From: an uncultured Schlesneria sp.
Lineage (GTDB): Bacteria > Planctomycetota > Planctomycetia > Planctomycetales > Planctomycetaceae
Direction: 5' to 3'
Assembly: GCA_903834925.1 (NCBI GenBank)
Contig: CAILLA010000039.1
Location: 1 to 64,000 of the forward strand
DNA: 64,000 nucleotides
Made by a program: the position numbers and the translations under genes. Below the pieces are notes generated by a model. It did no database searches. It was not told the DNA's origin and saw only the letters and a list, made by a program, of their open reading frames with translations. Positions within the stretch are counted from its first letter, which is position 1. Each line of letters opens with the position of its first letter. Shown piece after piece: positions 4,117 to 60,128 of the stretch.

Positions 4117-5520
4117 CTATTTCGAAGAATCTTGATCAGTGGTGGCCACGTCTTGTGATTCGGGCTTTGGCAGAAGGATCAGCACCCATTTTTCTGTTTT
4201 TCCGTTTTTGTGAATCAGGGCTGGTGCTTCGCCACTGGTGAGATTGCTGAGTCCCGCCTCAATGAAGAAATTCTTATTGTTGCCCACTGTCCAAGCGGCT
4301 CGCTGGGTTTCTTTGTCGACGGAACCATGAATGGGCAGCGCGTGATCTGAGACAAGATCAGTGTAGTTCCCTTGAATAATTCCTTCTTTGTTAATCGCCA
4401 GTTGCACGGCCAGTTGTGCGTGTTGCTCTTCGTTTCTGACCAGTGCGTAAACTCCGAGTGGAATCCAGTGGTCATGAGGCGATGTCTTCGAGTTCTGACC
4501 AATCATCGCCAGATCGGCCGCTTGCTGGCTGAAAGCACCTGCGGTCCCGACGTTCTGGCCATCAACGATCACGTCCCCGTTCAGAAGAGTGACGTTGTCT
4601 CCGTACCCGTACGAGACGGGATTGTTGCCATAACTACAATGAGCTGCGATACCGGCCATGTTCGTCGCATTCCACGCTGCACCAGCTGGCCAGTTTGTGG
4701 CAGTCCATGCTTCGGGATGATCGTTATGCCACTGCTGGTTATAGAGGTTCGGGTGATCGTAAGAATCTCGGACTGCTGAGTACCCGGCGGCGGCCCCGAC
4801 GGCACCGGAACCGGCAGGTTGATTGTGATTGGCAGCTGCGGCTCCGATGGCAGCTCCTTGAGCGCCAGTAACGGCGGGCTGATTTCGATTGGCGGCTGCA
4901 GCCCCCAACGCGGCACCGGTGGCACCCGATACTTGTGGATTATTTCGGTTTGCGGCAGCAGCACCGACTGCGGCTCCTTCAGCGCCGGAAGCAGCAGGCT
5001 TATTCCGATTGGCAGCCGCAGCCCCGGCAGCGACACCCTCTGCACCAGTTGCCGCAGGCTTATTCCGATTTGCGGCAGCAGCACCGGCGGCAGCCCCCTC
5101 GGCACCGGACGCCGCTGGCTTGTTCTTATTCGCTGCCGCAGCACCCGCTGCAGCCCCTTCCGCTCCCGATGCACCGGACTTGTTCTTATTGGCCGCTGCG
5201 GCTCCGGCGGCAGCCCCTTCAGCACCCGAAGGTTGAGATGATTTATGTTTCTGTTCTGCTTCGGCATGCTGGGCCTGGTTAGGCGTAGACTTCTTACCAG
5301 GACCTTCTGACCATTCTCCGCCAGGAGGTTTGTTGCCACCCTTATTTTCATTCGCCGATTTTTCGCCTCCCTTATGAGGTTCGGCTCCCTTGCCTTGTTT
5401 TTCGCCGGGTTTTTCCTGCTTTTCTTTCTCGCCGCCCTTACCGCGCTGCTGGCCAAATGCCAGCGGGACCGTAAGACACAACGCAATTGCCACCACCATG
5501 CTGACGAGCTGCCGTTTCAT
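4117..5520 (-). CDS. Secreted Ala/Gly-rich repeat protein, mu-protocadherin-like annotation class
   Basis: A secreted protein of 467 aa of unknown function. Residues 1-23 form a signal peptide (cleavage after AFG). Residues 24-97 are highly charged (Lys, Glu, Gly). Residues 98 to about 246 hold about seven and a half tandem 20-residue repeats of the form GAEGAAAGAAAANKNKPAA. A folded C-terminal region follows with HPEAW, YGYGDNV and a segment containing KTEKWVLILLPKP. Similar architecture is seen in planctomycete proteins labelled mu-protocadherin-like cell-surface proteins, though that label has little functional meaning. The Ala-rich repeats may form an extended spacer. The function of the C-terminal region is not recognised. 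Confidence 0.75.
   Translation of the reverse strand: MKRQLVSMVVAIALCLTVPLAFGQQRGKGGEKEKQEKPGEKQGKGAEPHKGGEKSANENKGGNKPPGGEWSEGPGKKSTPNQAQHAEAEQKHKSSQPSGAEGAAAGAAAANKNKSGASGAEGAAAGAAAANKNKPAASGAEGAAAGAAAANRNKPAATGAEGVAAGAAAANRNKPAASGAEGAAVGAAAANRNNPQVSGATGAALGAAAANRNQPAVTGAQGAAIGAAAANHNQPAGSGAVGAAAGYSAVRDSYDHPNLYNQQWHNDHPEAWTATNWPAGAAWNATNMAGIAAHCSYGNNPVSYGYGDNVTLLNGDVIVDGQNVGTAGAFSQQAADLAMIGQNSKTSPHDHWIPLGVYALVRNEEQHAQLAVQLAINKEGIIQGNYTDLVSDHALPIHGSVDKETQRAAWTVGNNKNFFIEAGLSNLTSGEAPALIHKNGKTEKWVLILLPKPESQDVATTDQDSSK
4783..5229 (-). repeat. 60-bp coding tandem repeat
   Basis: Seven to eight 60-base units encode the 20-residue Ala/Gly repeats. Units at the N-terminal side of the protein are nearly identical in protein sequence (AANKNKP/AANRNKP); those towards the C-terminal side diverge (NRNNPQV, NRNQPAV, NHNQPAG). 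This suggests recent expansion at one end. Confidence 0.85.
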
Positions 5521-6029
5521 GATCGTTCATTTCGGAAAAGAGAATATCCGGCGTCACGAAAAATGTGACCCGACAAAGAGTAGACGGCAATTGTCGGTAA
5601 ACTACAAGTGATTTCATTCGGGAAATCAAGTTCCCATCTCAAGATGAGCTTCCGATGAATTGCTTCATCGTTCAGCCACATAGGCCATATTGAATCAGTT
5701 CTGCGTCGATCGACGGACTCCGCTTTCACACTCACCAAGGTCGCTTCAATTGGATTGTTTCCTAAGCTTTTCAGACTCATGGAATGTTTGGCGCCGTTCA
5801 ATCGAAGTTAGTCGATGACGTACCGAGATGTCGTTGGTGTGTTCATAAGCTCAAAACGATTTGGTTTTTGATTTGCATGAGATTTTTTCTTTTAAATCTT
5901 GCAAACCGGAAGTGTATCGATTGTTCACTCTTCGTGACTTTTACTTTTTTGCGTGCGTACGCAATTCGGTCACGATCGGTATGCGACTTTTCATTCGCAA
6001 ACGAGAATCTTATTGAGGGGAGTGTCGGT
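5521..6029. other. Intergenic region, divergent promoters presumed
   Basis: No credible gene is seen. The stretch is T-rich near 5860-5950 and holds a palindromic site, TTGCGT-GCGT-ACGCAA (5949-5964), 66 bases before the lectin gene. That site could be an operator. No clear -35/-10 pair could be assigned by eye. Confidence 0.4.
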
Positions 6030-6686
6030 ATGAAATTGTTTTTGAAGGGTCTTTTTTTGAACGTCGTTTTATTCGCCGGATTTTCTACGGTATCGGGATC
6101 AACGATTGAGGGGCCGATCTACGATTCAATCAGTAACGTAAATCTATACGTAGTTTCCAGCGGATCATGGAACCAAGCGGAATCTCAGGCCGTGGCGCTT
6201 GGCGGCCATCTCGTGACCATTCATAGTGCTGCTGAGAATCAATTCATCGTCAACAACGTGTTAGTTAACTTCGCCGGAAGTGGCGGTCCAAATCTTTCTG
6301 ACGTTCCACTTTGGATTGGGTTATACGATCCGACGGGTGCCGGAAGCAATGACGGTAGCAGTTCTGGTCATGCCGCAAATTTTGTGTGGGCTGATGGTTC
6401 AACGTCAACATACAGAAATTGGAATTCCGGCGAACCGAATAATGCCGGTGGCACCGAGTACTATGCAAACATCAACTGGCATTACTCCGTCAGTAGTTCC
6501 GAAACCGTTGGGACATGGAACGATACGCCACTGGGTGGAAGTTCCGGTTATGGCGGCAATTCAAATGGCACCTATTACGGAATTGCTGCGGTCCCCGTGC
6601 CCGAGCCGTCCTCTTTCGCACTTCTCGGGCTCGGCATCGCCGGGTTCGCGTTGCAAGCTTATCGTCGACGGAATGCGACCGTGTGA
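6030..6686 (+). CDS. C-type-lectin-like PEP-CTERM protein
   Basis: A 218-aa secreted protein with a signal peptide (1-23), a C-type-lectin-like domain (about 38-186) and a PEP-CTERM sorting tail. The lectin fold is indicated by WNQAESQA followed by GGHLVTI (59-64), WIGL (95-98), GEPNN (134-138) and WND (163-165). The tail has PEP at 191-193, a hydrophobic helix (196-209) and a basic end (RRR 212-214), which is the substrate signature for exosortase-type processing. The ATG at 6030 is chosen because GAGGGGAG lies just upstream and the signal peptide begins there; an in-frame upstream extension to 5784 has no such support. No exosortase gene is in the window. Confidence 0.88.
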   Translation: MKLFLKGLFLNVVLFAGFSTVSGSTIEGPIYDSISNVNLYVVSSGSWNQAESQAVALGGHLVTIHSAAENQFIVNNVLVNFAGSGGPNLSDVPLWIGLYDPTGAGSNDGSSSGHAANFVWADGSTSTYRNWNSGEPNNAGGTEYYANINWHYSVSSSETVGTWNDTPLGGSSGYGGNSNGTYYGIAAVPVPEPSSFALLGLGIAGFALQAYRRRNATV

Positions 6687-44073: not shown

Positions 44074-44283
44074 ATGTCCGTCAGCACCGACGAAATCCTC
44101 ACTGCGGCCATTCAGCTTCCGGAGTCCGACCGCCTGACGATCGTCAGTCGACTGCTTGAAACGATGGGAGATGAAGAACATCTGCCAAGCATCGACGATA
44201 ACGATTTCATTGAGGAAATGCGTCGGCGCCGAGACGATTCCTCGGGTGCCATTCCCTGGTCGCAGTTGCGCGACGAGGATTGA
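44074..44283 (+). CDS. Addiction-module antitoxin component (TIGR02574-like)
   Basis: A 69-aa protein with the pattern of TIGR02574 addiction-module components: an N-terminal helix with ILTAAIQLPESDRLTIVSRLLETM, then an acidic-basic C-terminal half (EEMRRRRDDSSGAIPWSQLRDED) that would bind the toxin. The ATG at 44074 is chosen; a preceding in-frame ATG (44071 is out of frame) is not used, and an upstream frame from 44020 lacks a match to the family. The stop overlaps the toxin start. Confidence 0.85.
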   Translation: MSVSTDEILTAAIQLPESDRLTIVSRLLETMGDEEHLPSIDDNDFIEEMRRRRDDSSGAIPWSQLRDED

Positions 44284-44585
44284 TGGCGATGGAATCCGTT
44301 CGCTTTCATCGGTTAGCCGCTGAGGAGTATCGGTCAGCGCGGGACTGGTATCGGCAACGAGATATTTCGGTGGCCGGTCGGTTTTGCGCCGCCGTCGATT
44401 CTGCCGTGGATCGAATCATAGAGGACGCTGATTCTCATCCTGTGCTAATTGACGAAATTCGTTGGGTTCGCGTTCGGAAATTTCCCTATATTCTCGTCTT
44501 CGTCAGTGATCGCTCCGACAGTTTGTTGGTTATCGCGCTCGCTCACGCAAAACGTCGTCCTGGCTATTGGAAACGACGGCGGTGA
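44283..44585 (+). CDS. RelE/ParE family toxin
   Basis: A 100-aa toxin of the RelE/ParE superfamily. Typical features are FHRLAAEEYRSARDWY at the start, VRVRKFPYILVFV in the core and a basic C-terminus (HAKRRPGYWKRRR). The ATG overlaps the antitoxin stop (TGATG), so the pair is translationally coupled in antitoxin-first order. Whether it is a ribosome-dependent RNase or a gyrase poison cannot be told. The tag-derived repeat copy 2 begins exactly at its stop codon. Confidence 0.9.
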   Translation: MAMESVRFHRLAAEEYRSARDWYRQRDISVAGRFCAAVDSAVDRIIEDADSHPVLIDEIRWVRVRKFPYILVFVSDRSDSLLVIALAHAKRRPGYWKRRR

Positions 44586-44788: not shown

Positions 44789-46561
44789 GTGTTCTCAAAC
44801 TGGTTGTCAAAATCTTTCATGACGATGGCGATGGGTGCCATCCTGGGATACGGAGCCGCGAATAATCCGTTTCAAAAGCCACAGGCACAGCCTGTCGTCG
44901 CTGAAGGCTCAACTTCTCAAGCGATTAAGACGGTTGAAATCGCCCCGCTGAAATCCGAACGCCCAAGCTGCTGCGTTGGAGATCTGAGCAAAGCCGATCA
45001 AGTGGCACTCGTGAGCCATAACCAGCTTGTCGCCGCTTCGCTGGCTCAAGCTGGCAAAAAGCCGAATATCGTTGTCATCTGGGGTGACGATATCGGTGTC
45101 CACAACATCAGCGCTTATAACCATGGTATCATGGGATATCGCACTCCAAACATCGATCGTATTGCGAAAGAAGGGGCGCTATTTACCGATTCGTACGCTC
45201 AACAGAGCTGTACCGCAGGACGAGCCTCATTTATTCTCGGACAGCATCCGTTCCGTACGGGATTGCTGACAATCGGAATGCCCGGCAGTCCACATGGTAT
45301 TCCTGACTGGACTCCGACAACCGCCGACCTGCTTAAGGAACAAGGTTACGCGACTGGCCAGTTTGGTAAGAATCATCTCGGCGATCAGGATAAGCACCTG
45401 CCAACGCTGCACGGTTTCGATGAATTCTTCGGAAACCTGTACCATCTGAATGCCGAAGAAGAGCCAGAAACGTATTACTATCCAAAAGACCCCGAATTCC
45501 GCAAGAAGTTCGGTCCACGCGGTGTGCTGCATTGTAAGGCTGACGGCAAAGGCGGACAGACGATCAAGGATACCGGTCCGCTGACCGTGAAGCGAATGGA
45601 AACCATCGACGAAGAAGTTCATGCCAACGCGATGGATTTCGTTGATCGAAATGTCAAGGAAAAGAAGCCTTTCTTCCTGTGGTACAACAGCACCCGCATG
45701 CACGTCTGGACGCATCTCAAGAAAGCGTCCGAAGGAAAAACCGGCATCGGACTTTATCCCGATGGCATGGTCGAACACGACGGCTTCGTCGGTGAAGTCC
45801 TGAAGAAACTTGACGACCTCGGTATCGCTGATAACACCATCGTGGTTTACGGTACCGATAACGGAGCGGAAACCGCATCATGGCCTGACGGTGGTATCAC
45901 GCCGTTCCACGGTGAAAAAGGAACAACCTGGGAAGGTGGCCTTCGCGTGCCGATGATCGTTCGCTGGCCTGGCGTGATCAAGCCAGGAACCGTCGTCAAC
46001 GAAATCTTCTCACAGGAAGACTGGATGCCGACCTTCCTGGCCGCTGCGGGAGAACCGAATATCGTTGAAAAACTGGCGCAAGGTTACAAGGCCAACGGTA
46101 AGACATTCAAAATTCACGCTGACGGTTACAATTTCCTTCCTTATTTCAAAGGCGAAACGAAGAAAGGTCCTCGCGAAGAGATTCTGTACTTCGGACAGGG
46201 TGGTGAGTTGAACGCAGTCCGCTGGAGAGACTGGAAAGTTAACTTCGCTGTTGTCGACGGAAATATTGCGACAGGAACACGCAAGGTGACTGGTTGGCCA
46301 TTGATCGTGAACCTGAAGGCTGACCCGTACGAAAAGATGCCGCTCGAATCCAGCATGTACATGAGATGGTACGGCGACAACATCTGGTTATTCGTTCCCG
46401 TTCAGGCTCAGGTCAAGAATTTCCTCATGACAATTCCTCAGTTCCCCTTCCAGCAAGGGAGCACTCTGAATGCCGCTGGGATTAACTATCAATCTCTGAA
46501 GGCCGCAGAAGCGCTGAAGCGTTTGAATGAAATCGAAACGCTCGGTGCTCCGGGTAATTGA
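44789..46561 (+). CDS. Type I sulfatase (arylsulfatase family), paralogue 2
   Basis: A 590-aa sulfatase closely related to the one at 24534-26333. The active-site Cys141 is in CTAGR, and the metal-ligand pair is at 100-101 (WGDDIG). FGKNHLGD and GTDNGAE follow. It has the same single N-terminal hydrophobic segment (about 10-24) and the same Cys-Cys motif (61-62) with SKADQVALVSHNQLVAASL before the catalytic domain. The start is GTG at 44789 with AAGGAG 8 bases upstream. It probably depends on the FGE encoded at 26561. A strong terminator follows. Confidence 0.93.
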   Translation: MFSNWLSKSFMTMAMGAILGYGAANNPFQKPQAQPVVAEGSTSQAIKTVEIAPLKSERPSCCVGDLSKADQVALVSHNQLVAASLAQAGKKPNIVVIWGDDIGVHNISAYNHGIMGYRTPNIDRIAKEGALFTDSYAQQSCTAGRASFILGQHPFRTGLLTIGMPGSPHGIPDWTPTTADLLKEQGYATGQFGKNHLGDQDKHLPTLHGFDEFFGNLYHLNAEEEPETYYYPKDPEFRKKFGPRGVLHCKADGKGGQTIKDTGPLTVKRMETIDEEVHANAMDFVDRNVKEKKPFFLWYNSTRMHVWTHLKKASEGKTGIGLYPDGMVEHDGFVGEVLKKLDDLGIADNTIVVYGTDNGAETASWPDGGITPFHGEKGTTWEGGLRVPMIVRWPGVIKPGTVVNEIFSQEDWMPTFLAAAGEPNIVEKLAQGYKANGKTFKIHADGYNFLPYFKGETKKGPREEILYFGQGGELNAVRWRDWKVNFAVVDGNIATGTRKVTGWPLIVNLKADPYEKMPLESSMYMRWYGDNIWLFVPVQAQVKNFLMTIPQFPFQQGSTLNAAGINYQSLKAAEALKRLNEIETLGAPGN

Positions 46562-46700: not shown

Positions 46701-46743
46701 AACGAGGAGTGCCTCTGATAAAGACGGCACTCCTCGTTTTTTT
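46701..46743 (+). terminator. Rho-independent terminator after the sulfatase
   Basis: The stem AACGAGGAGTGCC with GGCACTCCTCGTT (46701-46713 with 46726-46738), 12-base loop, runs into seven T. It separates the sulfatase from the HAD/2H gene. Confidence 0.92.
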
Positions 46744-46768: not shown

Positions 46769-48379
46769 ATGAAAACGCTCTCGATTACAATCGTCGGACT
46801 ACTGTTCGCGGTGAGCGCGTTCGCCGCTGATCCACTGCCGACATGGAATGAAGGTACGGCCAAACGGTCGGTTATCAATTTCGTCGAAAAAGTGACTAAG
46901 GAAGGCTCGCCGGACTTCGTGCCTGCGGCAGAGCGTATCGCGACCTTTGACAATGACGGAACGCTCTGGTGCGAGAAGCCGCTTCCAGTGCAGCTGTTCT
47001 TCGCCCTCGACCGAGTCAAGGCGCTCGCACATCAACATCCGGAGTGGGAGGACAAGGAACCGTTCGCTTCTTTGCTCAAGCGTGATCTGAAAGCCGCCGC
47101 CACCGGTGGCGAACACGCGATCATGGAACTCCTCATGGCCACACACACGGGCATGACCACGGCGGAGTTCGAACAGATCGTGAAGGACTGGATCACGACC
47201 GCGAAGCATCCAACGACCGGCAAACGCTTCAGCGAAATGACCTACCAGCCGATGCTTGAAGTGCTGGCCTATCTGCGTGCGAACGGCTTCAAGAACTACA
47301 TCGTGTCGGGTGGCGGCATTGAGTTCATGCGCCCGTGGGCAGAAGCGGCGTACGGCATCCCACCCGAACAGGTCATCGGCAGTAGCGTGAAGACGAAGTT
47401 CGAGCTGCGCAACGGCCAGCCGGTCATCGTGCGTTTGCCGGAGTTGAATTTCATCGACGACAAGGGAGGCAAGCCCGTCGGCATCAATCAGCATATCGGC
47501 CGCCGACCGATCGCGGCGTTTGGCAACTCGGATGGCGATCTCCAGATGATGCAGTATGTCGGTGCCGGTAGCGGCAAACGATTCTGCCTCTACGTTCACC
47601 ATGACGATCCCCAGCGTGAATTCGCCTACGACCGCGCGGACCATCTCGCCAAACTCGACAAAGGTCTCGACGAATCCGCCATCAAGGGCTGGACCGTCGC
47701 CAGCATGAAGAATGACTGGAAGACTGTTTTCTCTGCCGCGCAGTCGGAGATCACCGCGATCGACATCTTGCTGAAGCCGGATGAGACGATGCTTAAGCAT
47801 TCCGCACTCAACAACGCTCGCCTGCTGACAGTCTTCCCGAAAGGCTTCCCCCTGGATGCGGAACACATGCCGCATATCACGATGCTGCAGTGTTTCGTCC
47901 GCACGGCAGATCTCGACAAAGTCTATGCCGCCGAGGAAAAAGTTCTCGCCGCCGCCAATGTGAACGCGATGAAGCTCGAGGCGTTCAAGTTCTACTATGC
48001 TCCGGGCGGCCCACTGGGTGTCGCAGGCATTTGCGCGAAGCCAACGCCGGACATCGTCAAGTTGCAGGCAGAAATCATAGCTGCCGCGAAGCCGTTCATG
48101 GTCAATGCCGGCCCGATCGGTGCTTTCGCTGCCCCGCACAACGATCCCGCCACGGACGAGGCCCTCATCAACTATGTTTCGACATTCGTGCCGAAAATGT
48201 CGGGCGAAAACTTCAATCCGCACGTCAGCACCGGCGTCGCTCCGAAAGAATACCTCGATATGATGCTCGCCGAGCCATTTGAGAAGTTCATCTCCTCTCC
48301 AGCAGGTGCGGCGGTTTATCAACTGGGGCCTTACGGCACTGCCGCAAGGAAACTCAAAGAATGGGATTTGAAGCGTTGA
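46769..48379 (+). CDS. Exported HAD-superfamily hydrolase fused to a 2H (2'-5' RNA ligase-like) phosphoesterase domain
   Basis: A 536-aa exported protein (signal peptide 1-20, ending AFA-A). Residues 50-320 are a HAD-superfamily phosphatase related to phosphoserine phosphatase: motif I is DNDGT (61-65), motif II a Ser-Gly segment (IVSGGG, 178-183) and motif IV GNSDGD (252-257). Residues 328-536 read as a 2H phosphoesterase domain with H369-I-T371 and H485-V-S487, the two HxT/S motifs that form the active site of LigT/2'-5' RNA ligase-like enzymes. The base composition looks richer in GC than its neighbours. The ATG at 46769 begins the signal peptide; the upstream in-frame extension crosses the terminator. 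The substrate is unknown. The 2H call rests on motifs and should be tested by profile search. Confidence 0.8.
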   Translation: MKTLSITIVGLLFAVSAFAADPLPTWNEGTAKRSVINFVEKVTKEGSPDFVPAAERIATFDNDGTLWCEKPLPVQLFFALDRVKALAHQHPEWEDKEPFASLLKRDLKAAATGGEHAIMELLMATHTGMTTAEFEQIVKDWITTAKHPTTGKRFSEMTYQPMLEVLAYLRANGFKNYIVSGGGIEFMRPWAEAAYGIPPEQVIGSSVKTKFELRNGQPVIVRLPELNFIDDKGGKPVGINQHIGRRPIAAFGNSDGDLQMMQYVGAGSGKRFCLYVHHDDPQREFAYDRADHLAKLDKGLDESAIKGWTVASMKNDWKTVFSAAQSEITAIDILLKPDETMLKHSALNNARLLTVFPKGFPLDAEHMPHITMLQCFVRTADLDKVYAAEEKVLAAANVNAMKLEAFKFYYAPGGPLGVAGICAKPTPDIVKLQAEIIAAAKPFMVNAGPIGAFAAPHNDPATDEALINYVSTFVPKMSGENFNPHVSTGVAPKEYLDMMLAEPFEKFISSPAGAAVYQLGPYGTAARKLKEWDLKR

Positions 48380-49013: not shown

Positions 49014-50435
49014 CTATAGTGTCAGGTTCGCCCGAATCCCGTACACGAACGAATCCTCAGCGATTCGGTTCATTCCGGGTTGGATAAACTGAATGTCCGG
49101 TGTGATATTCATCCACGGATTGATCTGGATGTTATAATACAGTTCCAGGCCGGACCCATCGGTCGGACCGAATACTGCCCGGGGGATGGGGCCGAATTGA
49201 TTGCTTGCACCGACATAGTACCAGCCAACACCGAACTTGTCCCCTTTCCCTTGTCGCACGGGACTATCACCACCGATACCGGCACTCAAAAAGTAGCGGA
49301 CCGGAGTCGGATTGCCATCGCTGATTGATGCTCGTCCGAATAACCCCCAGCCTTTGTTCTTAGTATTTGCGAACTGGACCAGGTATTGGTCGCAGCCATA
49401 GTAAAGCGTGTAGGAATTATTGAGGGTCGGCGATCCAGGCGTCGTTGGCTCAGGATAAACACCTGGCGGAGGCTCGTTAAAAGCCAGGTTGTCCAGTGGT
49501 TTGTGCTTCCAAATTCCACCGATGTGGTGTTCGCCCTTCATATCGAAGAAATTCGTATTCAAGCTGATCTCGGAGCCCATGATAATCCCTTTCGAGAAAA
49601 CATTGTTCACCGGCAGGCCTTGTTGCGTATAGTCTGAGGGGTCCCAGATGTATCCTTTAATCAAACCCCACTTTTGGGGTGAAACGAATCCTGCGGTATA
49701 TGAACTGTAGGGCAGTCCTAACAGAAACGAGGGGTTCGCGATCAGGGCCTGATTGATAAACTGGTTTGTTCCATCGCCTCCGGCAAATATGTCCTGGTCG
49801 GCCGCACCAAGGACGTCCTTCTTACCCGCAAAGACCACCAGGTTTTGAGAAAGTGGCTGCGTAAAAAGGAAGTTGGTGAGGTAAGGAATACCGGGGTTGT
49901 CTGGATTACTGGGTGGAAGTGCAGCCGGGAAGATTGTCGGGGCAAACGCTCCACTGTTCGCGCTGACGTTGGCGTATTGTCCGTACCAGTTCTCAGCACG
50001 GACCAGCAAAGTCCCTTTGGGCATTCCCCCGAATTTTTCGAGGTCCAAAAGCATGTCGTATTCGCCGCGACCGGTATATTTAAACGTGTTCCCCAGAGCG
50101 AGTGGAGGTGGTGGCGGAGTGTTAATCCCGCCGTCGATGCCGAAGGCAAATTGTGTGGAACGTCCTGCGAACGTGATCCCGGATTTCTGCAAACTTGACC
50201 TGAGTCCACCCCAGTCGCCCGTCAGTGTTGAGCGACTCCAGAAATCATCGTCAGAGTTCGCGATTGCTCCTGCGGTCCCCTCACCGGGGGAAAAGCCATA
50301 GCCCATCGCGTCATTGATCGTATTAGGAGTTTCGATCTGTTGCATCATGGGTTGCGCAAGAACGTACCCAGAAGGCGCACACAGTATGGCCACCAGCAGG
50401 CAATACATAAGAACTGATCTGATGTTAGTTCGCAT
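49014..50435 (-). CDS. OprB-family carbohydrate-selective porin 1
   Basis: A 473-aa outer-membrane porin of the OprB (carbohydrate-selective porin) family. A signal peptide (1-27, ending VLA) precedes the family-typical LTGDWGGLRSSLQKSGI (near 72-88). The C-terminal half has WGLFGRASISDG and the last strand ends in a hydrophobic residue (RANLTL), as in beta-barrels. It is one of three tandem paralogues on this strand, the most divergent of the three. The sugar or other solute passed is unknown. Confidence 0.9.
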   Translation of the reverse strand: MRTNIRSVLMYCLLVAILCAPSGYVLAQPMMQQIETPNTINDAMGYGFSPGEGTAGAIANSDDDFWSRSTLTGDWGGLRSSLQKSGITFAGRSTQFAFGIDGGINTPPPPPLALGNTFKYTGRGEYDMLLDLEKFGGMPKGTLLVRAENWYGQYANVSANSGAFAPTIFPAALPPSNPDNPGIPYLTNFLFTQPLSQNLVVFAGKKDVLGAADQDIFAGGDGTNQFINQALIANPSFLLGLPYSSYTAGFVSPQKWGLIKGYIWDPSDYTQQGLPVNNVFSKGIIMGSEISLNTNFFDMKGEHHIGGIWKHKPLDNLAFNEPPPGVYPEPTTPGSPTLNNSYTLYYGCDQYLVQFANTKNKGWGLFGRASISDGNPTPVRYFLSAGIGGDSPVRQGKGDKFGVGWYYVGASNQFGPIPRAVFGPTDGSGLELYYNIQINPWMNITPDIQFIQPGMNRIAEDSFVYGIRANLTL

Positions 50436-50695
50436 TCGTCACTCACCGATCCGTGGAATGAGTATTAATGTGAAAAGATCTTCCACTCAAAAGAGATCAA
50501 TCGACCTGTATGGCAAAAAAGTTTGTATGAAACCCAGAGAGAAGACATCGCCTCCGGGGCTCAAAATCTAATTCTTTGTTTATCTGATACGACCCACACA
50601 AGCTATTATCGCCAGGGACACCGGCAAGATGCAGATTCGGCAGGAACTGCGTTTTGAATTGGACATTGGATTCAACATTCAGAAACGCCGACGTT

Positions 50696-52135
50696 TCAGA
50701 AGTCGATCTTTGCCCGCACCCCAGCCACAAATGATGTGTCTGCACGTTGTTTGTAGGGATCAATCACCTGCACGTCAGGTGTGATATGGAACCACTGCGA
50801 AACGGCGATGTTATAAAACAGCTCGATACCCTCTTCGTTTTTCAGAGGCAATAAATCCGGAGCCGCGTTCTTGAGTACGTTGCTGACGGCCAGGTAGTAA
50901 TAGCCGATTCCAAATGTGTCTTGCACCCGACCTTGAATTGGACTGGAACCGCTGATCCCCAGCGTCGCAAAAAAGCGGTCTGGGTTAGGGTTGCCATCGG
51001 ATAATCCTAAGTCGCCAAACACACCCCAGACCTTTTTCGAGTCGTTCGGTGACACCCAAATTGCCTGGTCAAAATTGTAGGTCAGCGACCATGAACCCGT
51101 TGACTTAGGAAACAAATACCCTGGTCCGAGGATGGGGTCGTTATAAGGCGTTGGCTGAAGTTCCGAATATCTTCCCGTGCTGTAGGACCCGGCCACACCC
51201 TGGTGGCCCGGTCGGTCGAAGAACCGCGTTGGAATATTGAGTGCGGCTAAAATCGTCGCGCCGTTGCTGAATAGCGTGTCCAAACCGCTGACAGTCGGCG
51301 TATTGTTCGTGTCGATCACTGACACAGAAAAGATATGTTGATGATTCTGGTAATAAACGAATCCTGCCCCGTACGTAGAATAAGGGACCGTGCGACCATA
51401 CACGGGGTTAAACATCATTGAGGTATTTAAGAACCCGTTCAGTCCAGTCGCCTCCGTGAGCGGCTGAACAAACGTGTCGAACATGTTCAGTCGACCGCCG
51501 TAGACAAGCAAGTCTTCAGACAGATACTGTGACAATTTGAAGGCTGTTAATGCAGTAACAGTCCCCGTTGGTTGTGGAAACACCATCATCAGGTTCACCG
51601 GCAACAACGCACCAGTGAGAAGGTCAGCGGTTTGTCCGTAACGGGTTTCACCATGAAGTGAAACCGAAAACCCGCGCCACAGTCCTGCCTTCTCGCCATC
51701 GAGATTAAGGAAATAGTCGTTACGTCCGCCGTAACGAAATCCCTGCTGAAGCCCACCCGAGGCAACGCCTTGATAATACTGGGTCGTACTCGCGTCGAAG
51801 TTCACCCCGTTTTCGATCAGTTCTGATCGAGTGCCCAACCAGTCTCCTGTGAGCTTCGTTCGGTCAAAGCAACGCGGATCTGCCTGGCCTGAAGGCGACT
51901 GAATCGGGAGCGACTGCGCCGGTAAGGGTGTCAGGGTCGGTACGATCGCGTCCGGAGATCCAATGTAATTGACGCGCAGGAAATCCGGTGATCCGAGTGT
52001 TGCGGATTCCGATGGAGCCTGCTGGATCGACTCTCCATCGGGGACTTGAGCGGTCGCCACGAGAGCGAAGCAGGCGACAATTGCTGCAAGGCTCAGCGAT
52101 ATTGCGATCTGCGATATTCGAATCCGCGATCGCAT
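50696..52135 (-). CDS. OprB-family carbohydrate-selective porin 2
   Basis: A 479-aa OprB-type porin closely related to the next gene. It has a signal peptide, LTGDWLGTRSELIENGVNF, a run of beta-barrel strands and a C-terminal RAKIDF. The ATG at 52135 is chosen because AAGGGGA stands about 9 bases upstream; an in-frame start at 52273 would read through the inverted repeat element at 52223-52346 and is not credible. Between this gene and porin 1 lie 260 bases in which I see nothing defined. Confidence 0.9.
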   Translation of the reverse strand: MRSRIRISQIAISLSLAAIVACFALVATAQVPDGESIQQAPSESATLGSPDFLRVNYIGSPDAIVPTLTPLPAQSLPIQSPSGQADPRCFDRTKLTGDWLGTRSELIENGVNFDASTTQYYQGVASGGLQQGFRYGGRNDYFLNLDGEKAGLWRGFSVSLHGETRYGQTADLLTGALLPVNLMMVFPQPTGTVTALTAFKLSQYLSEDLLVYGGRLNMFDTFVQPLTEATGLNGFLNTSMMFNPVYGRTVPYSTYGAGFVYYQNHQHIFSVSVIDTNNTPTVSGLDTLFSNGATILAALNIPTRFFDRPGHQGVAGSYSTGRYSELQPTPYNDPILGPGYLFPKSTGSWSLTYNFDQAIWVSPNDSKKVWGVFGDLGLSDGNPNPDRFFATLGISGSSPIQGRVQDTFGIGYYYLAVSNVLKNAAPDLLPLKNEEGIELFYNIAVSQWFHITPDVQVIDPYKQRADTSFVAGVRAKIDF

Positions 52136-52222
52136 AGCGAAACGTCCCCTTATTGAAATCCCCGGCACCATTCTTATGCAAAGTCGTGAAGAGAGTTTTT
52201 CATCACGACCGCACACCAACGC

Positions 52223-52346
52223 AACCCCACCCCCTCTACGGGGGTGGTTACAGGGCTTTTGCACCAGGATCATCTGCTGAGACCAGGACTGATTTCAGCC
52301 ACTAGGGCAAAGGCCCGTTAACCACCCCCGCAGAGGGGGTGGGGTT
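52223..52346. repeat. Long imperfect inverted repeat between porin genes (MITE-like)
   Basis: Two 28-base arms (52223-52250 and 52319-52346) match in reverse complement at 27 of 28 positions. They run AACCCCACCCCC-TCTACGGG-GGTGGTTA and its partner, and pairing continues loosely inward for about 16 bases. The whole 124-base unit could form a long hairpin and lies between two minus-strand porin genes. No coding capacity or clear target duplication was found. Confidence 0.85.
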
Positions 52347-52387
52347 TCGTTTAGATTGGGTACGTGGTCTATTTCCTTCACGATCGA

Positions 52388-53839
52388 TCAGAAATCGATC
52401 TTCGCTCGTACGCCCGCCACAAATGCGTTGTCGACACGCTGCCGGAACGGGTCGAGTACCTGAAGATCAGGTGTCACATGGAACCACGGCGTGACTGCGT
52501 AGTTGTAGAACAGCTCAACCCCCTGCTCATTCTTCAACGGCAGCAATACTGGGTGGAGATCCTTCAAAGCGTTGGACACGTCAAGATAGTAATAGCCGGC
52601 TCCAAAAGTGTCTTGCGTTCGTCGTTGGAAAGGACTCGTTCCGCTCAGGCCGATGTTATAGAACGATCGAATGGGATTCGGATTTCCATCCGAAACTCCG
52701 ATGTTTCCGAACACCCCCCAAACCTTTTTCGGATCGGTGGGTGATACGTAAAGCGCCTGATCAAAATTGTAGTTGAGAGACCATGAGCTCGATTGAGTTG
52801 TCGTCTTGAGTCCTAATCCGGTGATAGGGTCTAAATACGGAGTCGGCTGAAGATCGGTGTAAGCTCCGTTACTGTAAGACCCAATCAGTCCCTGGTGGCC
52901 TGGAAGATTCAAAAATTTCGTAGGAATGTTTAACTGTCCAAGCAATGTGATGCCGTTGGCAAATAACGAGTCCTTGATTCCAATCGTGGTCGGGACGTTA
53001 TTGGTATCAAGAATGGCAACCGAAAGAATCGGCTCAAAGTTCTGTAAGACGGCGAATCCCGCTCCGTAGGTCGAGTAAGGTGCAGTGCGGGCCAGAATTG
53101 GAGGGAACATGAACGACGCATTCATAAATCCCGTGTTCTGAGTTGCACCTGTCAATGGTTGACTGAAGCTGTCGAGCAAGTTCAGTCGTCCACCGAAGAC
53201 CAGAAAGTTTTCCGATAGAAACTGGGTTACTTTGACGGCGGTCAAGCCTTCGACGGTCCCACCTGGTTGGGGAAGCAGCATCATCAGGTTGGCAGGCATT
53301 AACGCGCCTGTTTGCTGATTAATTGAATTCCCGTAGCGACTTTCCTCGTGCAAGGTAACAAACAAGCCCTTCCACAAGCCCGCCTTCTCTCCGTCAACAT
53401 TCAGGTACAGGTCATTGCGTCCACCGTACTGGAAGTTTTGATTAACTCCACCCGACGCGACACCCTGGTAATACTGTGTATTGCTGAAGTCGATCGTATA
53501 CCCGGCGTCCCTCAGATCATTACGTGTACCACCCCAACCGCCGGTCAATTTCGTTCGCGTCGATAGCGGACCGCCGAAAGGAGGTGCGGCTGGCGGCGCT
53601 GACGCCGCAGGCGCTGTAATCGGTACCATCTGCAAAGGCGTTAATGTCGGTACAATCGGCTGACTTCCCGCATTCGGTTGGGAGTCAAACAGGATTGGCG
53701 TCTGATTCGTCACCGAAGTTGGTGCCGGCGCGTCATCGTACGGCACCTGAGCAGACGCATTGATTGACAGACTTGTTGCGGCAATTCCAGCGAGTAGAAC
53801 ACGAACCGCACAACGCGAAAACCGAAAACCTAACGGCAT
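52388..53839 (-). CDS. OprB-family carbohydrate-selective porin 3
   Basis: A 483-aa OprB-type porin, the first gene of the tandem on this strand. A signal peptide (ending INASA) precedes LTGGWGGTRNDLRDAGYTIDF and barrel segments, ending RAKIDF like porin 2. GGAGG is 7 bases upstream of the ATG at 53839, which fixes the start. Porins 2 and 3 share long segments (YQGVASGG, GGRNDYFLN/GGRNDLYLN, LNGF/MNASFMF region), so they arose by a recent duplication. Confidence 0.9.
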   Translation of the reverse strand: MPLGFRFSRCAVRVLLAGIAATSLSINASAQVPYDDAPAPTSVTNQTPILFDSQPNAGSQPIVPTLTPLQMVPITAPAASAPPAAPPFGGPLSTRTKLTGGWGGTRNDLRDAGYTIDFSNTQYYQGVASGGVNQNFQYGGRNDLYLNVDGEKAGLWKGLFVTLHEESRYGNSINQQTGALMPANLMMLLPQPGGTVEGLTAVKVTQFLSENFLVFGGRLNLLDSFSQPLTGATQNTGFMNASFMFPPILARTAPYSTYGAGFAVLQNFEPILSVAILDTNNVPTTIGIKDSLFANGITLLGQLNIPTKFLNLPGHQGLIGSYSNGAYTDLQPTPYLDPITGLGLKTTTQSSSWSLNYNFDQALYVSPTDPKKVWGVFGNIGVSDGNPNPIRSFYNIGLSGTSPFQRRTQDTFGAGYYYLDVSNALKDLHPVLLPLKNEQGVELFYNYAVTPWFHVTPDLQVLDPFRQRVDNAFVAGVRAKIDF

Positions 53840-54458
53840 CTTGACGCCTCCCTGCTTTGTTGCCGATTTCGAGCGCATCGACACTTCACAACGCGAAATC
53901 GACCCTCAATGTTCGCGTATAACGCCATTTCGTATCGGGTCGGATCATGTCCCGACGTGAGAATGAGCGAGGGCACGAAGGGCTTACAGCCTCGGGATGT
54001 CTCCGGTCGATTTGATTATGCCGAATATACTGGTCGTTTGCAGGTCGCCATCGGTCAAACAAAGAAATTGGAGAGGCAAGAAATTTGCCAAGGATAACAC
54101 TTATGGGGACGGGTCGGAGAAGAATCACGTAATGTTCTTTTTGTCTTTAACAGCGTCAATCAATGTGATCCGTGGTTAAAAATCCAGAATGGCCCGCTTT
54201 TTTGTTTCCTGAATTCTGGATGATTCATTTGTGGATGAGCGAACCTGGGTTGAAAAGGCTTTCGAGTCTTTTTCAATTGGTCGCGGTGCTGGGTAAGATG
54301 CTTGCGCGTGGGCGAAATGTGTCGTGTTAGATATCGATGTCCAGGCGATGTTTTGCTGCACGGGCTGAAGCCCATGCTACGATTTTGGTTCGCAGTTTTT
54401 TCCTTCCAAAAATTAACGTACTTGAAACACTATGCAGGTTGTTGTTGGAGTCGTTTGA
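53840..54458. other. Intergenic region between divergent porin and ceramidase-like genes
   Basis: No gene is supported. A small perfect hairpin motif, GGGCTGAAGCCC (54362-54373) inside GCACGGGCTGAAGCCCATGC, is a common short dispersed motif in many genomes. The rest is moderately AT-rich and presumably holds two divergent promoters, which I could not pin down. Confidence 0.4.
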
Positions 54459-57400
54459 ATGATTCGAATTCTTCTTGCGCTTTCGATTGTGGCTGGGACC
54501 GTTCACTTTCCCGGTCGGCTGCCGATGGTTTTTGCCGTTGAGGGTCATACCGTTTATTCCGTGGGGGTCGCACAAATCGACATTACCCCGGATTACCCTG
54601 TCAGGCTCTCGGGGTTTGGATTTCGGCGAACTGAGTCCGAAGGAGTGACCCAGCCGATCTGGGCGAAGGCTCTGGCGATTTCTTTGGATAAGACCAGTCC
54701 GCCGGTGGTCTTGATTACTGCCGACAATCTGGGAATCCCAGCATCAATGTTTGATGAGGTTGCCAAACGATTGGCGAATCAAACGGGTCTGGAACGTTCA
54801 CGGCTGGCAATCAACTCGTCACATACACATACCGCGCCGATGTTGCGCGGCGTGGCACCGACTTTGTTCAGCGGACCAATTCCTGATGAACACTGGCAAC
54901 GAATCGATCAATATACCTCTGACCTGACGGACAAACTGACCTCCGTGGCAATCGCGGCATTGAACGATCGGGCACCGGCTCGACTGAGCTGGGGAATCGG
55001 GTCGGTGAAGTTCGCGATCAACCGGCGAACGAAGGGTGGCCCGGTTGATCATGACCTCCCTGTGTTGGTCGTTAAACGGATCGATGGTGTGATCCGAGCG
55101 ATCTGTGTGAACTACGCTTGTCATTGCGTAACCCTGTCGAATAACAAGATCAGTGGAGACTGGGCTGGATACGCTCAGGACCTGATTCAACGCGATTGTC
55201 CGTCCGCCATCGCGATGGTCTCGATCGGTTGTGGTGCCGACCAAAACCCTTCGTCAGGTGTTACCGGAGACAAGTCGGATATCGCTTTGCAACAAGGAGC
55301 CGCAATTGCTGCCGAAGTGAAACGAATACTTGGCGGATTCCTCTCACCGGTTCAGGGGGATATTTCGTCGAGCCTGAAACAGATCAAGCTTGATTTCGCC
55401 GAACCTCCGACAAAAACGGAATGGGAAGAAACGGCAAAACGGAACGATGCAAAAGGCTATCACGCTCGCGTACAGCTTGAACGACTGGCTCGCGGCGAAT
55501 CTCTCCAGGCGAACGTCAATTACCCGATCGCCACTTGGACGTTTGGCAATTCGCTGGCGATGGTTTTTCTGCCGGGCGAGGTTGTTGTTGATTATTCGCG
55601 ACGTTTGAAACGCGAACTCGATGGAGGGCGACTTTGGATCAATGCCTATGCCAATGATTCCCCCTGCTATATCCCTTCGGAACGAGTCCTCAAGGAGGGG
55701 GGCTACGAGGCACTCGATGCTATGTACTACTACGATCGACCTGGTGCCTTGAAAGCTGGTCTCGAAGACCAGATTATTGGTGCAGTGCATGAGTCGCTCG
55801 ATGCGAAGTTCGCGGCCCCGTTCGATTCCAACAAAACTTCGGGAACGTTGCCGAAGTCGCCTCAACAGTCACTCGCCTTGCTGCAGACGACGCCCAATTT
55901 AAGAGTCGATCTGGTTTGTGCGGAACCGTTGATTGCTGATCCCGTCGCCATCGATTTTGGTCGAGATGGCAGCTTGTGGGTGGCTGAGATGCATGATTAT
56001 CCTGATGGAATGCCGCAGGGTGATTCTGTCCCCAGCGAACAACACAAACCTGATGCGTTTGTTCCAGGTGGACGAATTCGTCTCGTGCGAGATTCTGATG
56101 GAGACGGTCAATTTGATCGATCGACGATCTTTCTCGATAACATCCCATTGCCAACCGGAGTCACCGTCTGGAAAAACGGCGTTCTTGTCTGTGCGGCACC
56201 GGATATCTTGTTTGCCGAAGACACAGACGGAGACGACAAAGCGGATGTTGTGAAAAAACTGTTTTCCGGTTTCGGCACGATGAATAATCAGGCTCGACTG
56301 AACAGCCTTTGTGATGGCATGGATGGTTGGGTCTACGGATCTTGTGGACTGTTTGGTGGGATGATCACCAGCTTTCAAGGGACCGCATTCCAACTCGGTG
56401 ATCGCGACTTTCGTATCAAGCCTGACACTGGTGAGATTGAAGCGGCGACGGGTCGAACTCAACAGGGGCGTGTTCGTGACAGCTATGGAAACTGGTTCGG
56501 TTGCGACAACATGAACCTCGCTTATCATTATCCGCTCGCCGAACATTATTTGAGACGAAACCCGCATGTCACAGCACCTGCGAGTCGAGTCAATCTGGCT
56601 CGAACGACCGACGCCGCTCGACTTTATCCGGCGAAGACCGACGCTCAGCGATTTGCACTCAGTGGACCTGCCGGCACGGTCACCGCCGCATGCGGAATCG
56701 GGGTCTATCGCGATTCAGCGCTCGGACCTGAATACCAGGATAATCTTTTCGTCTGCGAACCGGTGAATTTGCTGGTTCACCGCATGACACTGAAGCCACA
56801 AGGAAGCTCATTCATTGCAGTGCGTCCATCGAATGAAACCGAGACTGAGTTTCTTCGTTCGACCGACGGTTGGTTCCGACCAGTTCAAGCGGTGACCGGG
56901 CCTGACGGTAATCTATGGGTCGTCGACATGTACCGCTTCATTATCGAAGACCCTCGCTGGATACCGGAAGACGAACTGGCGCCACTCGACATCCGCGCGG
57001 GAAGCAAGCTCGGTCGGATTTATCGCGTCACCAACGCTTCTGACAAACGGCCGCCCGCGACCCGGATGGCAGTGATGAGTCGCGGCGACGGACCAGTAAA
57101 TCATGTTGATCCGAAATACTCCGTTTATCAGGACCTTGAAGTTCAGCGTTTGGAATCGATGGCCAAATCTGCAGCCAGTTCCATTCCAAAATCAACGCTT
57201 GATAAATGGCGCAAGGCATACATCGAAGCCGAGCGAGTGATCAGCTATCGAAAACTGGCTGCGACCGGTATGTTGGATACGAACGACATTCGTCACGCGA
57301 TGATCGACCGAGATCCGAGAATTCGTTCATTCGCGATTAGACTGGCCGAGCGATCTTCAGCCAGAATTCTGCTTCTTGACACGATCCTTTTTTTGGCGAC

Positions 57401-60128
57401 GGACGAAGACCAGAGTGTCCGACTTCAGGTCGCATGTTCTCTTGGCGAATTGGACGATCCACGGATCGGTTCGACGCTCGCAAAAATGGCACTAAAAGAT
57501 GCGAGTGACCCCTACGTCGTGGCGGCCGTTTTCAGCAGCGTGAACGGCAAGAATCTGCAAACATTTACAAAAACGTTGTTCGAAGATCTGGCCGGTCAAG
57601 AGCCGCCGCCGTCACTGATGGCTCCCTTCCTGGCCACGGCCGTTGGGTATTCGGACGACAAAGCGATCAAACGGGCCTTAGTCGCAGTTGCGGCTCAGGA
57701 TGGACAATTGCCCAAACCGTGGCAGCTTGACGCAATTTCAAATCTTGTTGAATCGCTCGCCAAAACGCAGACGCCGCGGCCGACAGAAACTGCAATTCAA
57801 ACGGTGATCGCGCGAACACAGGATCAGGCACGAGAAATTGCGGTCGGAGAAACGCTAGACGAAGCAGTTCGACTTGCGGCGATCAAACTGTTGGCACGAG
57901 ATGAATCGCGTCGGCAGGACGACATCAAAGTACTCGAACAATTGCTTTCCCCCGCGCATCCACCGAATGTCCAACTGGCAGCAGTTGATGCGTTCGAGCG
58001 GATTTCCCGTGACGACGTTCCTGGCATACTCTCTGCTCGATATCGCGAACTGTCGCCGACGGTTCAGCCTCGTGCAGTCGACGTCATATTGAGTCGAGAT
58101 GCGTGGTATCCGCTGTTGTTTGCCGAAATCGCACGCGGCGCGATTCCCCCTACTTCAATCACTGCGGCTCAGCGACAGGAACTGGTCGCACATCCCAACA
58201 AACAAATCCGCGACCGTGCGGCGGAGTTGCTTGCCACCACATACAACGCTGACCGCCACGCGGTGCTTCAGCAATACAGGGTGGCTCTCGATTTAAAGGG
58301 TGACGCCGAACGCGGGAAGGCGTTGTTCGCAAAGAGTTGTTCTCAATGCCACAGATTGGGAGATGTCGGATATGCTGTCGGGCCGAACCTGAGCATGGTT
58401 GTAAACAAGACGCCTTCGTTCTTGTTGCAAGAGATGTTGGACCCGAATCGTAATGTCGACACGCGGTACATTTCCTATGTTGCGGCCACGAAAGCAGGGC
58501 TGATTCGAACCGGAATCTTATCCAGCGAATCCTCGAACAGCGTGACTCTGCTGGCAGCCGAAGCAAAACAATTCCCTCTGCTTCGGACTGACATTGACGA
58601 ACTACGCGCAACCGGAAAATCGCTGATGCCGGAAGGGATGGAAAAGGATCTGTCACATCAAGCGGTTGCCGACGTGATTGCATTTTTGAAATCGTTACCC
58701 GCAACATCAAAAAGTTGCGACGGGAACAGCCCCGCCGTTGTGAAGCCGGTGGAGGGACGAGTTGTACTGCCTGCATCTGCAGCAGCGATTTTCGGTGACC
58801 AGATCACCTTCGAACGACCATTCGGAAACATTGGCTACTGGCACGGATTGCAGGATCACGTTGCCTGGACCGTCGAGCTGCCACAAGCTGCCGAATTTGA
58901 TATCTACCTGGAGGGTGCATGCGATACTGCGTCGGCGGGAAATCGATATCGACTTGAGATTGGTGAACAGTCATTGACCGGACGAATTGATTCGACTGGC
59001 GGCTGGGATAAATACCGTGCGTCAAAGATCGGGACCATTTCGTTAAAGGTGGGAACGCATCGTGTTGTTGTTCGTCCCGATAGCGAAGTCATTCGAGGGG
59101 CGTTAGTCGACTTGCGGGGTTTGCACTTAGTCCCTGCTGGAGAAGCATTCGCTCTGATGAAATCGAAGGCTCCTGCATCGGAGTTAAGTATCGACGAAAT
59201 TGCAGCTCAAATTCTGGATGACAAGCTTTCTGAAGACCAGCGACAAGCCATCATCGCAAAACATCCTGAAGATCCTGCGGCGCTCGTTGAGAAGATGACG
59301 CGTGGCATGCCGAATGACCTGAAAGAAGAATATCGTCGAATCCCATGGATCTGGCGAGTCGCCATCGCTTGTGGAAAGCGCAACGATGCCAAACAGATCA
59401 CAGCGCTGTTAGACACGTCGCTTCCTCAGTTGGACCAGCCACTACGTGACTGGCAAGCGGTTGTGATCGGTGGAGGAATCATCAACGGCATCGGTCTGAA
59501 GGGGAGCTGGCCAAAGTCCCGGATGGGAGAAATTCTGAGTGATCAAGTCGATCTGGTAAAACGTTGGAAACATTTGTTGTTACTCGCGTCAAAAATGGCC
59601 GACGATGAAGCAGTGGCAACGGGAACTCGCTATGACGCATTGCGAATCATCGCACTCGATGATTGGACTCTTCGCCGGGACCAGCTGACGAAGTATCTTG
59701 CAAAAGGTATTCACGACGAGTTGCAAATGGGTGCGATTAGCGGCCTGAGTGATGTTGATTCGAAAGATGTACCTCAGCTACTGATTAACAATCTGGGTCA
59801 CTTTAACGACGAGAATCGTGGCCTGGCGGTGAATGCGTTGCTACGAACAAATGAACGTACCGAACGATTGCTGGATGCGGTCGCCGATAGCAAGATCTCG
59901 CCCAAACTCATTAATGCCGCTCAACGTAAACTACTTTTTGAATCGGTGGACCAGTCATCAGGGAACGGTCGAAAAGGATTCTGGCAGAATGACACATTTT
60001 TCGATTCGCGAAATGGAAATCGAGCAGCAACTTCCGCAGACCTTTGGTGTGATTCGAGAAGGGATCGAACGACAGCTGCATACCGGTTGCCAGCTCTATA
60101 TCTCCGTTCAAGGGAAAGTCGTCGCTGA
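54459..60128 (+). CDS. Ceramidase-like / PVC-type dehydrogenase / HEAT / cytochrome c fusion protein
   Basis: A 1,889-aa exported protein. After a signal peptide (1-27), residues about 30-470 resemble the neutral/alkaline non-lysosomal ceramidase N-terminal domain (VGVAQIDITPDYPVRLSGFG, NSSHTHTAPMLRG, NYACHCVTLSNN). Residues about 475-865 are the PVC-type membrane-bound dehydrogenase beta-propeller (VWVAEM-like LWVAEMHDYPDG, RIRLVRDSDGDGQFD). HEAT-like repeats follow (about 900-1270), then a cytochrome c domain with C1294-S-Q-C-H1298 and its distal Met region. A carbohydrate-binding-like domain (about 1440-1560) and a further repeat region complete it. The last 62 residues overlap the next gene in another frame and look artefactual (see finding). 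Confidence 0.88.
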   Translation: MIRILLALSIVAGTVHFPGRLPMVFAVEGHTVYSVGVAQIDITPDYPVRLSGFGFRRTESEGVTQPIWAKALAISLDKTSPPVVLITADNLGIPASMFDEVAKRLANQTGLERSRLAINSSHTHTAPMLRGVAPTLFSGPIPDEHWQRIDQYTSDLTDKLTSVAIAALNDRAPARLSWGIGSVKFAINRRTKGGPVDHDLPVLVVKRIDGVIRAICVNYACHCVTLSNNKISGDWAGYAQDLIQRDCPSAIAMVSIGCGADQNPSSGVTGDKSDIALQQGAAIAAEVKRILGGFLSPVQGDISSSLKQIKLDFAEPPTKTEWEETAKRNDAKGYHARVQLERLARGESLQANVNYPIATWTFGNSLAMVFLPGEVVVDYSRRLKRELDGGRLWINAYANDSPCYIPSERVLKEGGYEALDAMYYYDRPGALKAGLEDQIIGAVHESLDAKFAAPFDSNKTSGTLPKSPQQSLALLQTTPNLRVDLVCAEPLIADPVAIDFGRDGSLWVAEMHDYPDGMPQGDSVPSEQHKPDAFVPGGRIRLVRDSDGDGQFDRSTIFLDNIPLPTGVTVWKNGVLVCAAPDILFAEDTDGDDKADVVKKLFSGFGTMNNQARLNSLCDGMDGWVYGSCGLFGGMITSFQGTAFQLGDRDFRIKPDTGEIEAATGRTQQGRVRDSYGNWFGCDNMNLAYHYPLAEHYLRRNPHVTAPASRVNLARTTDAARLYPAKTDAQRFALSGPAGTVTAACGIGVYRDSALGPEYQDNLFVCEPVNLLVHRMTLKPQGSSFIAVRPSNETETEFLRSTDGWFRPVQAVTGPDGNLWVVDMYRFIIEDPRWIPEDELAPLDIRAGSKLGRIYRVTNASDKRPPATRMAVMSRGDGPVNHVDPKYSVYQDLEVQRLESMAKSAASSIPKSTLDKWRKAYIEAERVISYRKLAATGMLDTNDIRHAMIDRDPRIRSFAIRLAERSSARILLLDTILFLATDEDQSVRLQVACSLGELDDPRIGSTLAKMALKDASDPYVVAAVFSSVNGKNLQTFTKTLFEDLAGQEPPPSLMAPFLATAVGYSDDKAIKRALVAVAAQDGQLPKPWQLDAISNLVESLAKTQTPRPTETAIQTVIARTQDQAREIAVGETLDEAVRLAAIKLLARDESRRQDDIKVLEQLLSPAHPPNVQLAAVDAFERISRDDVPGILSARYRELSPTVQPRAVDVILSRDAWYPLLFAEIARGAIPPTSITAAQRQELVAHPNKQIRDRAAELLATTYNADRHAVLQQYRVALDLKGDAERGKALFAKSCSQCHRLGDVGYAVGPNLSMVVNKTPSFLLQEMLDPNRNVDTRYISYVAATKAGLIRTGILSSESSNSVTLLAAEAKQFPLLRTDIDELRATGKSLMPEGMEKDLSHQAVADVIAFLKSLPATSKSCDGNSPAVVKPVEGRVVLPASAAAIFGDQITFERPFGNIGYWHGLQDHVAWTVELPQAAEFDIYLEGACDTASAGNRYRLEIGEQSLTGRIDSTGGWDKYRASKIGTISLKVGTHRVVVRPDSEVIRGALVDLRGLHLVPAGEAFALMKSKAPASELSIDEIAAQILDDKLSEDQRQAIIAKHPEDPAALVEKMTRGMPNDLKEEYRRIPWIWRVAIACGKRNDAKQITALLDTSLPQLDQPLRDWQAVVIGGGIINGIGLKGSWPKSRMGEILSDQVDLVKRWKHLLLLASKMADDEAVATGTRYDALRIIALDDWTLRRDQLTKYLAKGIHDELQMGAISGLSDVDSKDVPQLLINNLGHFNDENRGLAVNALLRTNERTERLLDAVADSKISPKLINAAQRKLLFESVDQSSGNGRKGFWQNDTFFDSRNGNRAATSADLWCDSRRDRTTAAYRLPALYLRSRESRR

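Follow-up and report, generated by a model that had tools for sequence, protein, structure and literature searches.

A candidate bifunctional phosphohydrolase joining HAD and 2H domains in an uncultured Schlesneria sp., and the recurrent pairing of its 2H family with phosphatases

The window analyzed in this study, a stretch of 64,000 nucleotides from an uncultured Schlesneria sp. (host genome 9.0 Mb), contains a gene that joins a HAD phosphatase to a 2H phosphoesterase (Table 1). We propose, with a probability of about 0.5, that its product is a bifunctional extracytoplasmic phosphohydrolase, in which diester cleavage by the 2H half is followed by phosphate removal by the HAD half. The protein would be exported out of the cytoplasm; its C-terminal 2H domain would hydrolyze a phosphodiester, most likely a cyclic phosphate (of a nucleoside or a sugar, for example), yielding a phosphomonoester, and its N-terminal HAD domain would then strip off the phosphate, leaving Pi and an alcohol fit for uptake. 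The computed basis comprises homology to HAD and 2H proteins, kept motifs, purifying selection, repeated pairing with phosphatases of two folds, and similarity across phyla; we infer export, catalysis, the order of the steps, and a cyclic substrate.

The earlier note on this DNA had described a single open frame joining the two domains, and this frame proved intact, with both folds standing and no linker separating the HAD half from the 2H half. A sequencing or assembly artefact was rejected because unbroken HAD-2H fusions recur across several genomes. The nearest relatives, from two MAGs labelled Schlesneria, are 87% (L027) and 86% (L028) identical, and they have the same gene order as the window: metG (named by eye in the window), methyladenine glycosylase, sulfatase, HAD-2H, and three OprB genes. 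The match to PDB entry 4ovy begins at residue 21, directly after the probable signal sequence. The signal peptide reported in the same note was retained as a signal-like stretch, and the extracytoplasmic location that had been read from it is kept as probable.

Table 1. Features of the window around the HAD-2H fusion gene
Feature	Position	Strand	Basis or remark
HAD-2H fusion gene	46769..48379	+	536 aa, single frame, without internal stop
Probable signal sequence, residues 1-20	46769..46828	+	By eye and hydropathy
HAD phosphatase domain, approx. residues 21-323	46829..47737	+	4ovy, PF12710, motif conservation
2H phosphoesterase domain, approx. residues 324-536	47738..48376	+	PF13563 family matches, Foldseek, ThpR alignment
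Sulfatase, C-T-A-G-R motif	44789..46561	+	PF00884, 163.7 bits; directly upstream of the fusion
Terminator-like hairpin and run of seven T	46701..46743	+	Ends approx. 25-30 nt before the fusion start codon
Three tandem OprB-type porin genes	49014..53884	-	Pfam; a part in the system is a guess

The closest PDB relative of the HAD half is 4ovy (E 5e-124, residues 21-324), a HAD hydrolase of the same family that is presumably of planctomycete origin. Its 310-residue chain consists of the HAD part only, and the 2H half of the fusion has no counterpart there; no paper was found for this code in the open-licence PMC literature. PF12710 matched residues 58-262 with 46.3 bits, above the cut-off of 27, whereas a search with PF08282 matched five other places in the genome and not the fusion gene. 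The DxDGT nucleophile motif (DNDGT, residues 61-65), the serine motif (SGGG, 180-183), and the acidic motif IV (GNSDGD, 252-257) were all identified, and D61/D63, S180, and N253/D257 are at least 90% conserved in a 16-row alignment that includes one row without a HAD. The earlier description of intact DNDGT, IVSGGG, and GNSDGD motifs therefore stands as to their presence but not for D255, which varies (GNSRGD in Pseudomonas), while N253, S254, G256, and D257 are conserved. In the window's family, HADs without a 2H module are commoner than the fusion, and a sulfatase adjoins such HADs in 7 of the 14 loci examined (13 of the 14 with only about 1.5 kb of flank). These results indicate that the HAD has a role independent of the 2H module, and because of the adjoining sulfatases, the sulfatase and the HAD may be an older pair to which the 2H module was added.

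The C-terminal half is assigned to the 2H phosphoesterases by PF13563 family matches, Foldseek, and alignment with ThpR. The two motifs already read at H369 and H485 were recovered as HIT (residues 369-371) and HVS (residues 485-487); both HxT/S motifs are kept in 31 of 31 complete 2H rows, and both histidines are invariant in 2H alignments of 19 and 15 rows. PF13563 matched the fusion with 20.6 bits over the whole protein and 23.8 bits over the C-terminal half alone, below the cut-off of 27, but it matched all 15 rows of 2H alignment A2 (E up to 1, best 4.3e-9); PF02834 (LigT) matched 6 of these 15 rows. A comparison of the 2H family with eight ThpR rows by hhalign aligned both histidine motifs (E 6.7e-5, probability 64%). 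The 2H half was also modelled with AlphaFold2 (mean pLDDT 59, pTM 0.62; pLDDT below 50 near H485), and the best Foldseek match of this model in the PDB was the cyclic phosphodiesterase of Arabidopsis (1jh6, E 6e-4, TM 0.41-0.48), the only match below 0.001. LigT came next, from E 0.008, and then Usb1 with E values of 0.07-0.11. A model of the whole fusion was set aside as poor (pLDDT 48.5).

Searches of the PDB by sequence returned no 2H chain, either with the 2H half (one match, E 1.4) or with the 2H profile, which matched six different sequences at E 10 or below; the strongest of these, a retron reverse transcriptase (0.056), was judged to be due to chance. The window's 2H half had no match in NCBIfam, where a single other row of the 2H alignment matched TIGR02258 (E 0.075). 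This ThpR/LigT family was found in 8 of the 12 genomes searched with it, the window's genome and two others of the genus giving no match. Additionally, none of 16 pattern matches in viral contigs was confirmed.

The partners of the 2H module were compared across 37 loci with 2H relatives, namely the window, 19 homologues, five of seven plasmid matches, 11 further loci, and L110; plasmid matches H5 and H6, the repeats L091 and L092, L098 (HAD only), the fragment L076, and the weak L083 were omitted. The module is fused to a HAD in 19 loci, among them a truncated sulfatase-HAD-2H chimera (L031) and two with an incomplete 2H (L094, L095), and to a PAP2 phosphatase in three (L035, L046, L089). In four others (L049, L050, L085, L090), the HAD has a gene of its own no more than 200 bp from the 2H gene, giving 26 of 37 loci in which the module is fused to, or at most 200 bp from, a HAD or PAP2. 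The HAD is more distant in two loci (2.1 kb upstream in L047, 3.2 kb downstream in L038), and no HAD or PAP2 was found within the stretch around the 2H gene in eight (L045, L048, L086, L087, L088, L096, L097, L110); L041, which a contig edge cuts short, was counted as undecidable. In L031 (Pseudomonas reinekei, 5149-6642), the start of a sulfatase continues in frame with the mid-part of a HAD and a whole 2H, a chimera of two adjacent genes created by a deletion. In L110 (6860-7483), the standalone 2H protein L109, a distant member of the family, has a leader with twin-arginine-like and lipobox-like features and has apparently lost the second HxT/S motif (by eye).

The PAP2-2H fusions belong to a MAG labelled Verrucomicrobia (L035), an Ensifer plasmid (L046), and a genome of the same phylum as the first (L089). 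KX6RP-PSGH-SRX5HX3D, the signature of class A acid phosphatases, is intact in the PAP2 domain of all three, and PF01569 matched L035, the only PAP2 fusion scanned, with 66.2 bits. The adjoining pairs of separate genes come from a Streptomyces plasmid (L049), a Rhodococcus plasmid (L050), the Pseudomonas genus of L033 (L085), and the class of L039, alphaproteobacterial by label (L090). The genes of L085 and L090 lie in the order sulfatase, HAD, 2H, each starting with a signal-like sequence by eye, and the HAD and 2H genes of L090 are about 10 bp apart; both loci likely represent the unfused form. Neither the HAD nor the 2H of L049 has a signal sequence, and L050 has a 2H without one and a HAD split over two frames. 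Export is therefore not universal in the family, since a signal sequence is missing from both of these actinobacterial 2H proteins and from the HAD of Streptomyces. A gene annotated as DUF1254 follows the HAD and 2H genes on the Rhodococcus plasmid (L050, 6691-8220).

The best explanation for why the 2H module is joined to phosphatases with two unrelated folds is a pathway in which one enzyme supplies the substrate of the other. The stepwise processing suggested in the earlier note, still a proposal, has gained genomic support from 2H modules fused to PAP2 or lying beside a separate HAD gene. Counting against the proposal are the eight loci with neither phosphatase in the stretch, the apparent motif loss in L109, the members without a signal sequence, the HADs that occur without a 2H module, and the broken copies within the genus.

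The surroundings of the gene bear on an alternative, which we regard as unlikely, that the sulfatase, the phosphatase, and the 2H protein together break down a single polymer or lipid bearing both sulfate and phosphate groups, with the 2H domain cutting a linear or cyclic diester in it and nucleotides being irrelevant. A same-strand sulfatase lies at most 1.5 kb upstream of the 2H module in 20 of 36 loci, although the genomes hold just 5-39 sulfatase matches each (8 genomes counted); several of these loci are orthologues counted repeatedly and so are not independent. The upstream sulfatase is present in 16 of the 22 fused loci, including the three PAP2 fusions, and absent from L110. A joint substrate would also suit L038 (807-10302), a one-direction run of genes for two sulfatases, a PF01663 phosphodiesterase, the 2H protein, metallo-beta-lactamase-fold, DUF1254/DUF1214, and choloylglycine-hydrolase-like proteins, and a HAD; here the PF01663 gene is directly upstream of a standalone 2H with a signal sequence. 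Nevertheless, the stretches surrounding the HAD/2H pairs of Streptomyces and Rhodococcus yielded no sulfatase, and in the window a strong hairpin (-30.3 kcal/mol, z -5.5, 86-nt stretch) separates the sulfatase from the fusion. Its stem is identical in four loci of the genus, a terminator scan did not report it, and it may end the sulfatase transcript or serve as an attenuator. Because it separates the two genes, their cotranscription should not be assumed in the window.

OprB genes adjoin the locus in L027 (three), L028 (three), and L045 (one), and their membership in the system of the fusion is a guess. Other genes of the window include a ParE-type toxin gene between the glycosylase and the sulfatase (44280-44585; PF05016 27.3 bits, cut-off 23) and a gene for an 1889-aa protein with a neutral ceramidase N-terminal domain, DUF7133, HEAT repeats, and cytochrome c (54459-60128).

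It is also conceivable, though improbable in our judgment, that the fusion serves joint export and dosage only, combining two general phosphorus-scavenging hydrolases that act on separate substrates with no sequential pathway. This would agree with the wide occurrence of the HAD alone, the eight 2H loci with neither phosphatase in the stretch, and the lack of a known HAD/2H domain interface, but in all 22 fused loci the 2H module is joined to either a HAD or a PAP2, and no other kind of partner was seen among them. A non-catalytic 2H half that binds a ligand and aims the phosphatase is highly improbable, since the apparent loss of a motif in L109 is set against both motifs in every complete row and the invariant histidines.

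The proposed sequential phosphohydrolase can be compared with known systems. LigT/ThpR and plant CPDase have the fold and the two HxT/S motifs in common with the 2H half of the fusion and are, as far as known, single-domain enzymes without a signal sequence. The 2H family differs in that it mostly has a signal sequence and is joined to phosphatases, and relative to ThpR from eight loci it is longer by about 30 residues ahead of the second motif. The catalytic domain of CpdB is a metallophosphoesterase, and the fusion differs in having no Pfam match to such a domain at E up to 1. An excerpt of a study on CpdB describes it as a 2',3'-cyclic phosphodiesterase and 3'-nucleotidase outside the cytoplasm with one catalytic and one binding domain (PMC7922932). 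The likeness concerns the job that we propose, from a cyclic phosphate through a monoester to Pi, and not the family. The fusion would perform such a CpdB-like job outside the cytoplasm by means of unrelated folds. A comparable arrangement is that of STS-1/STS-2 (UBASH3), which according to part of another article combine a phosphodiesterase domain (2H per the survey cited there) and a phosphatase in one polypeptide (PMC10252698); they differ in being signalling proteins that also contain UBA and SH3 domains, and their phosphatase is of the PGM type and neither a HAD nor a PAP2. No bacterial HAD-2H or PAP2-2H protein appeared in the titles and opening abstract lines of the listed open-licence PMC matches, and the founding 2H survey (Mazumder 2002) may mention one.

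As for the substrate, 2H enzymes hydrolyze 2',3'-cyclic phosphates to 2'-phosphates and open 2',3'-cyclic or 1'',2''-cyclic phosphates to monoesters, according to an excerpt of a further study (PMC5283653). Nucleoside 2',3'-cyclic phosphates are our first guess, a doubtful one; the substrate may instead be a cyclic phosphate of a sugar or polyol, or a diester within the molecule acted on by the neighbouring sulfatase.

The trees argue against a simple origin of the fusions. In a tree of 31 2H domains, which omits L041, L045, L094, L095, and L097 (incomplete or broken) and the later-found L110, a single clade was rejected for the three PAP2-fused domains (p-AU 1e-5), the 17 HAD-fused domains (p-AU 3e-4), and all fused domains (p-AU 1e-6); the groups were set by architecture and not by the trees, and the 2H tests were run after the tree had been seen. 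Similarly, a tree of 35 HADs rejected one clade of the 18 fused members (p-AU 1e-4). Long branches (L039, L047, L049, and L096 among others) make some placements unsure. Because a single clade of fusions is rejected, a lone fusion event that was then simply inherited does not fit, and repeated fusion, partner exchange, HAD loss, or gene conversion would all be compatible with the trees. The dN/dS ratios over seven fusion pairs are low in both halves (0.07-0.13 for HAD, 0.10-0.27 for 2H), and therefore both are maintained as protein in these pairs. Decay also occurs within the genus: at the orthologous locus L045 (5848-6634), a signal sequence leads straight into the 2H domain, the HAD is missing, and the 2H frame then breaks, and just the first 53 residues of the 2H are recognizable in L094.

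The distribution of the 2H module is patchy. It is fairly common in the window's genus, where 8 of 15 genomes (the window's own included) match its region at least partly. Outside the genus it is rare: it was matched in 1 of 392 genomes from the window's phylum (the window's own), 6 of 298 from the Pseudomonas genus, 3 of 288 from the phylum of L035 (one of these with an E value of just 6e-4), 2 of 385 from the class of L039, and 2 of 398 from the phylum of L042. The sets overlap partly, and each includes a centre genome picked for having the gene and, for Pseudomonas, a second. The fusion is 72-73% identical to its Pseudomonas counterparts over the full length and 75-76% in the 2H domain, against 55-56% for metG as a control; within the genus the order is reversed, with 93-95% for metG and 86-87% for the fusion. 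This pattern matches the prediction of transfer between phyla. MAG labels are possibly wrong, but by their titles neither the plasmid records nor the three named Pseudomonas genomes are MAGs. Together, the identity relative to metG and the patchy distribution point to horizontal transfer of the fusion gene between phyla, and they support the transfer hinted at in the earlier note more than the GC content on which it had relied. The gene does have a higher GC3 (0.72, with an overall GC of 0.577) than 11 other genes between 37 and 60 kb (0.46-0.60; upstream sulfatase 0.575), but its codon-usage cost is within their range, and composition alone is therefore weak evidence from which we do not argue transfer.

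We tentatively suggest, at clearly less than even odds, that the 2H module is a horizontally mobile add-on that enables ordinary exported phosphatases of two unrelated folds to consume cyclic phosphodiesters by themselves. This would be a hitherto undescribed route outside the cytoplasm that parallels CpdB and is embedded within sulfatase clusters. The repeated joining of this 2H family to phosphomonoesterases suggests a direct assay, in which the release of phosphate from a cyclic substrate would depend on both halves, and the exchange of HAD for PAP2 offers a natural control to show which of the halves determines specificity. If the proposal is true, the fusion would add a route by which environmental bacteria could obtain phosphate from products of RNA degradation or from cyclic phosphates of sugars.
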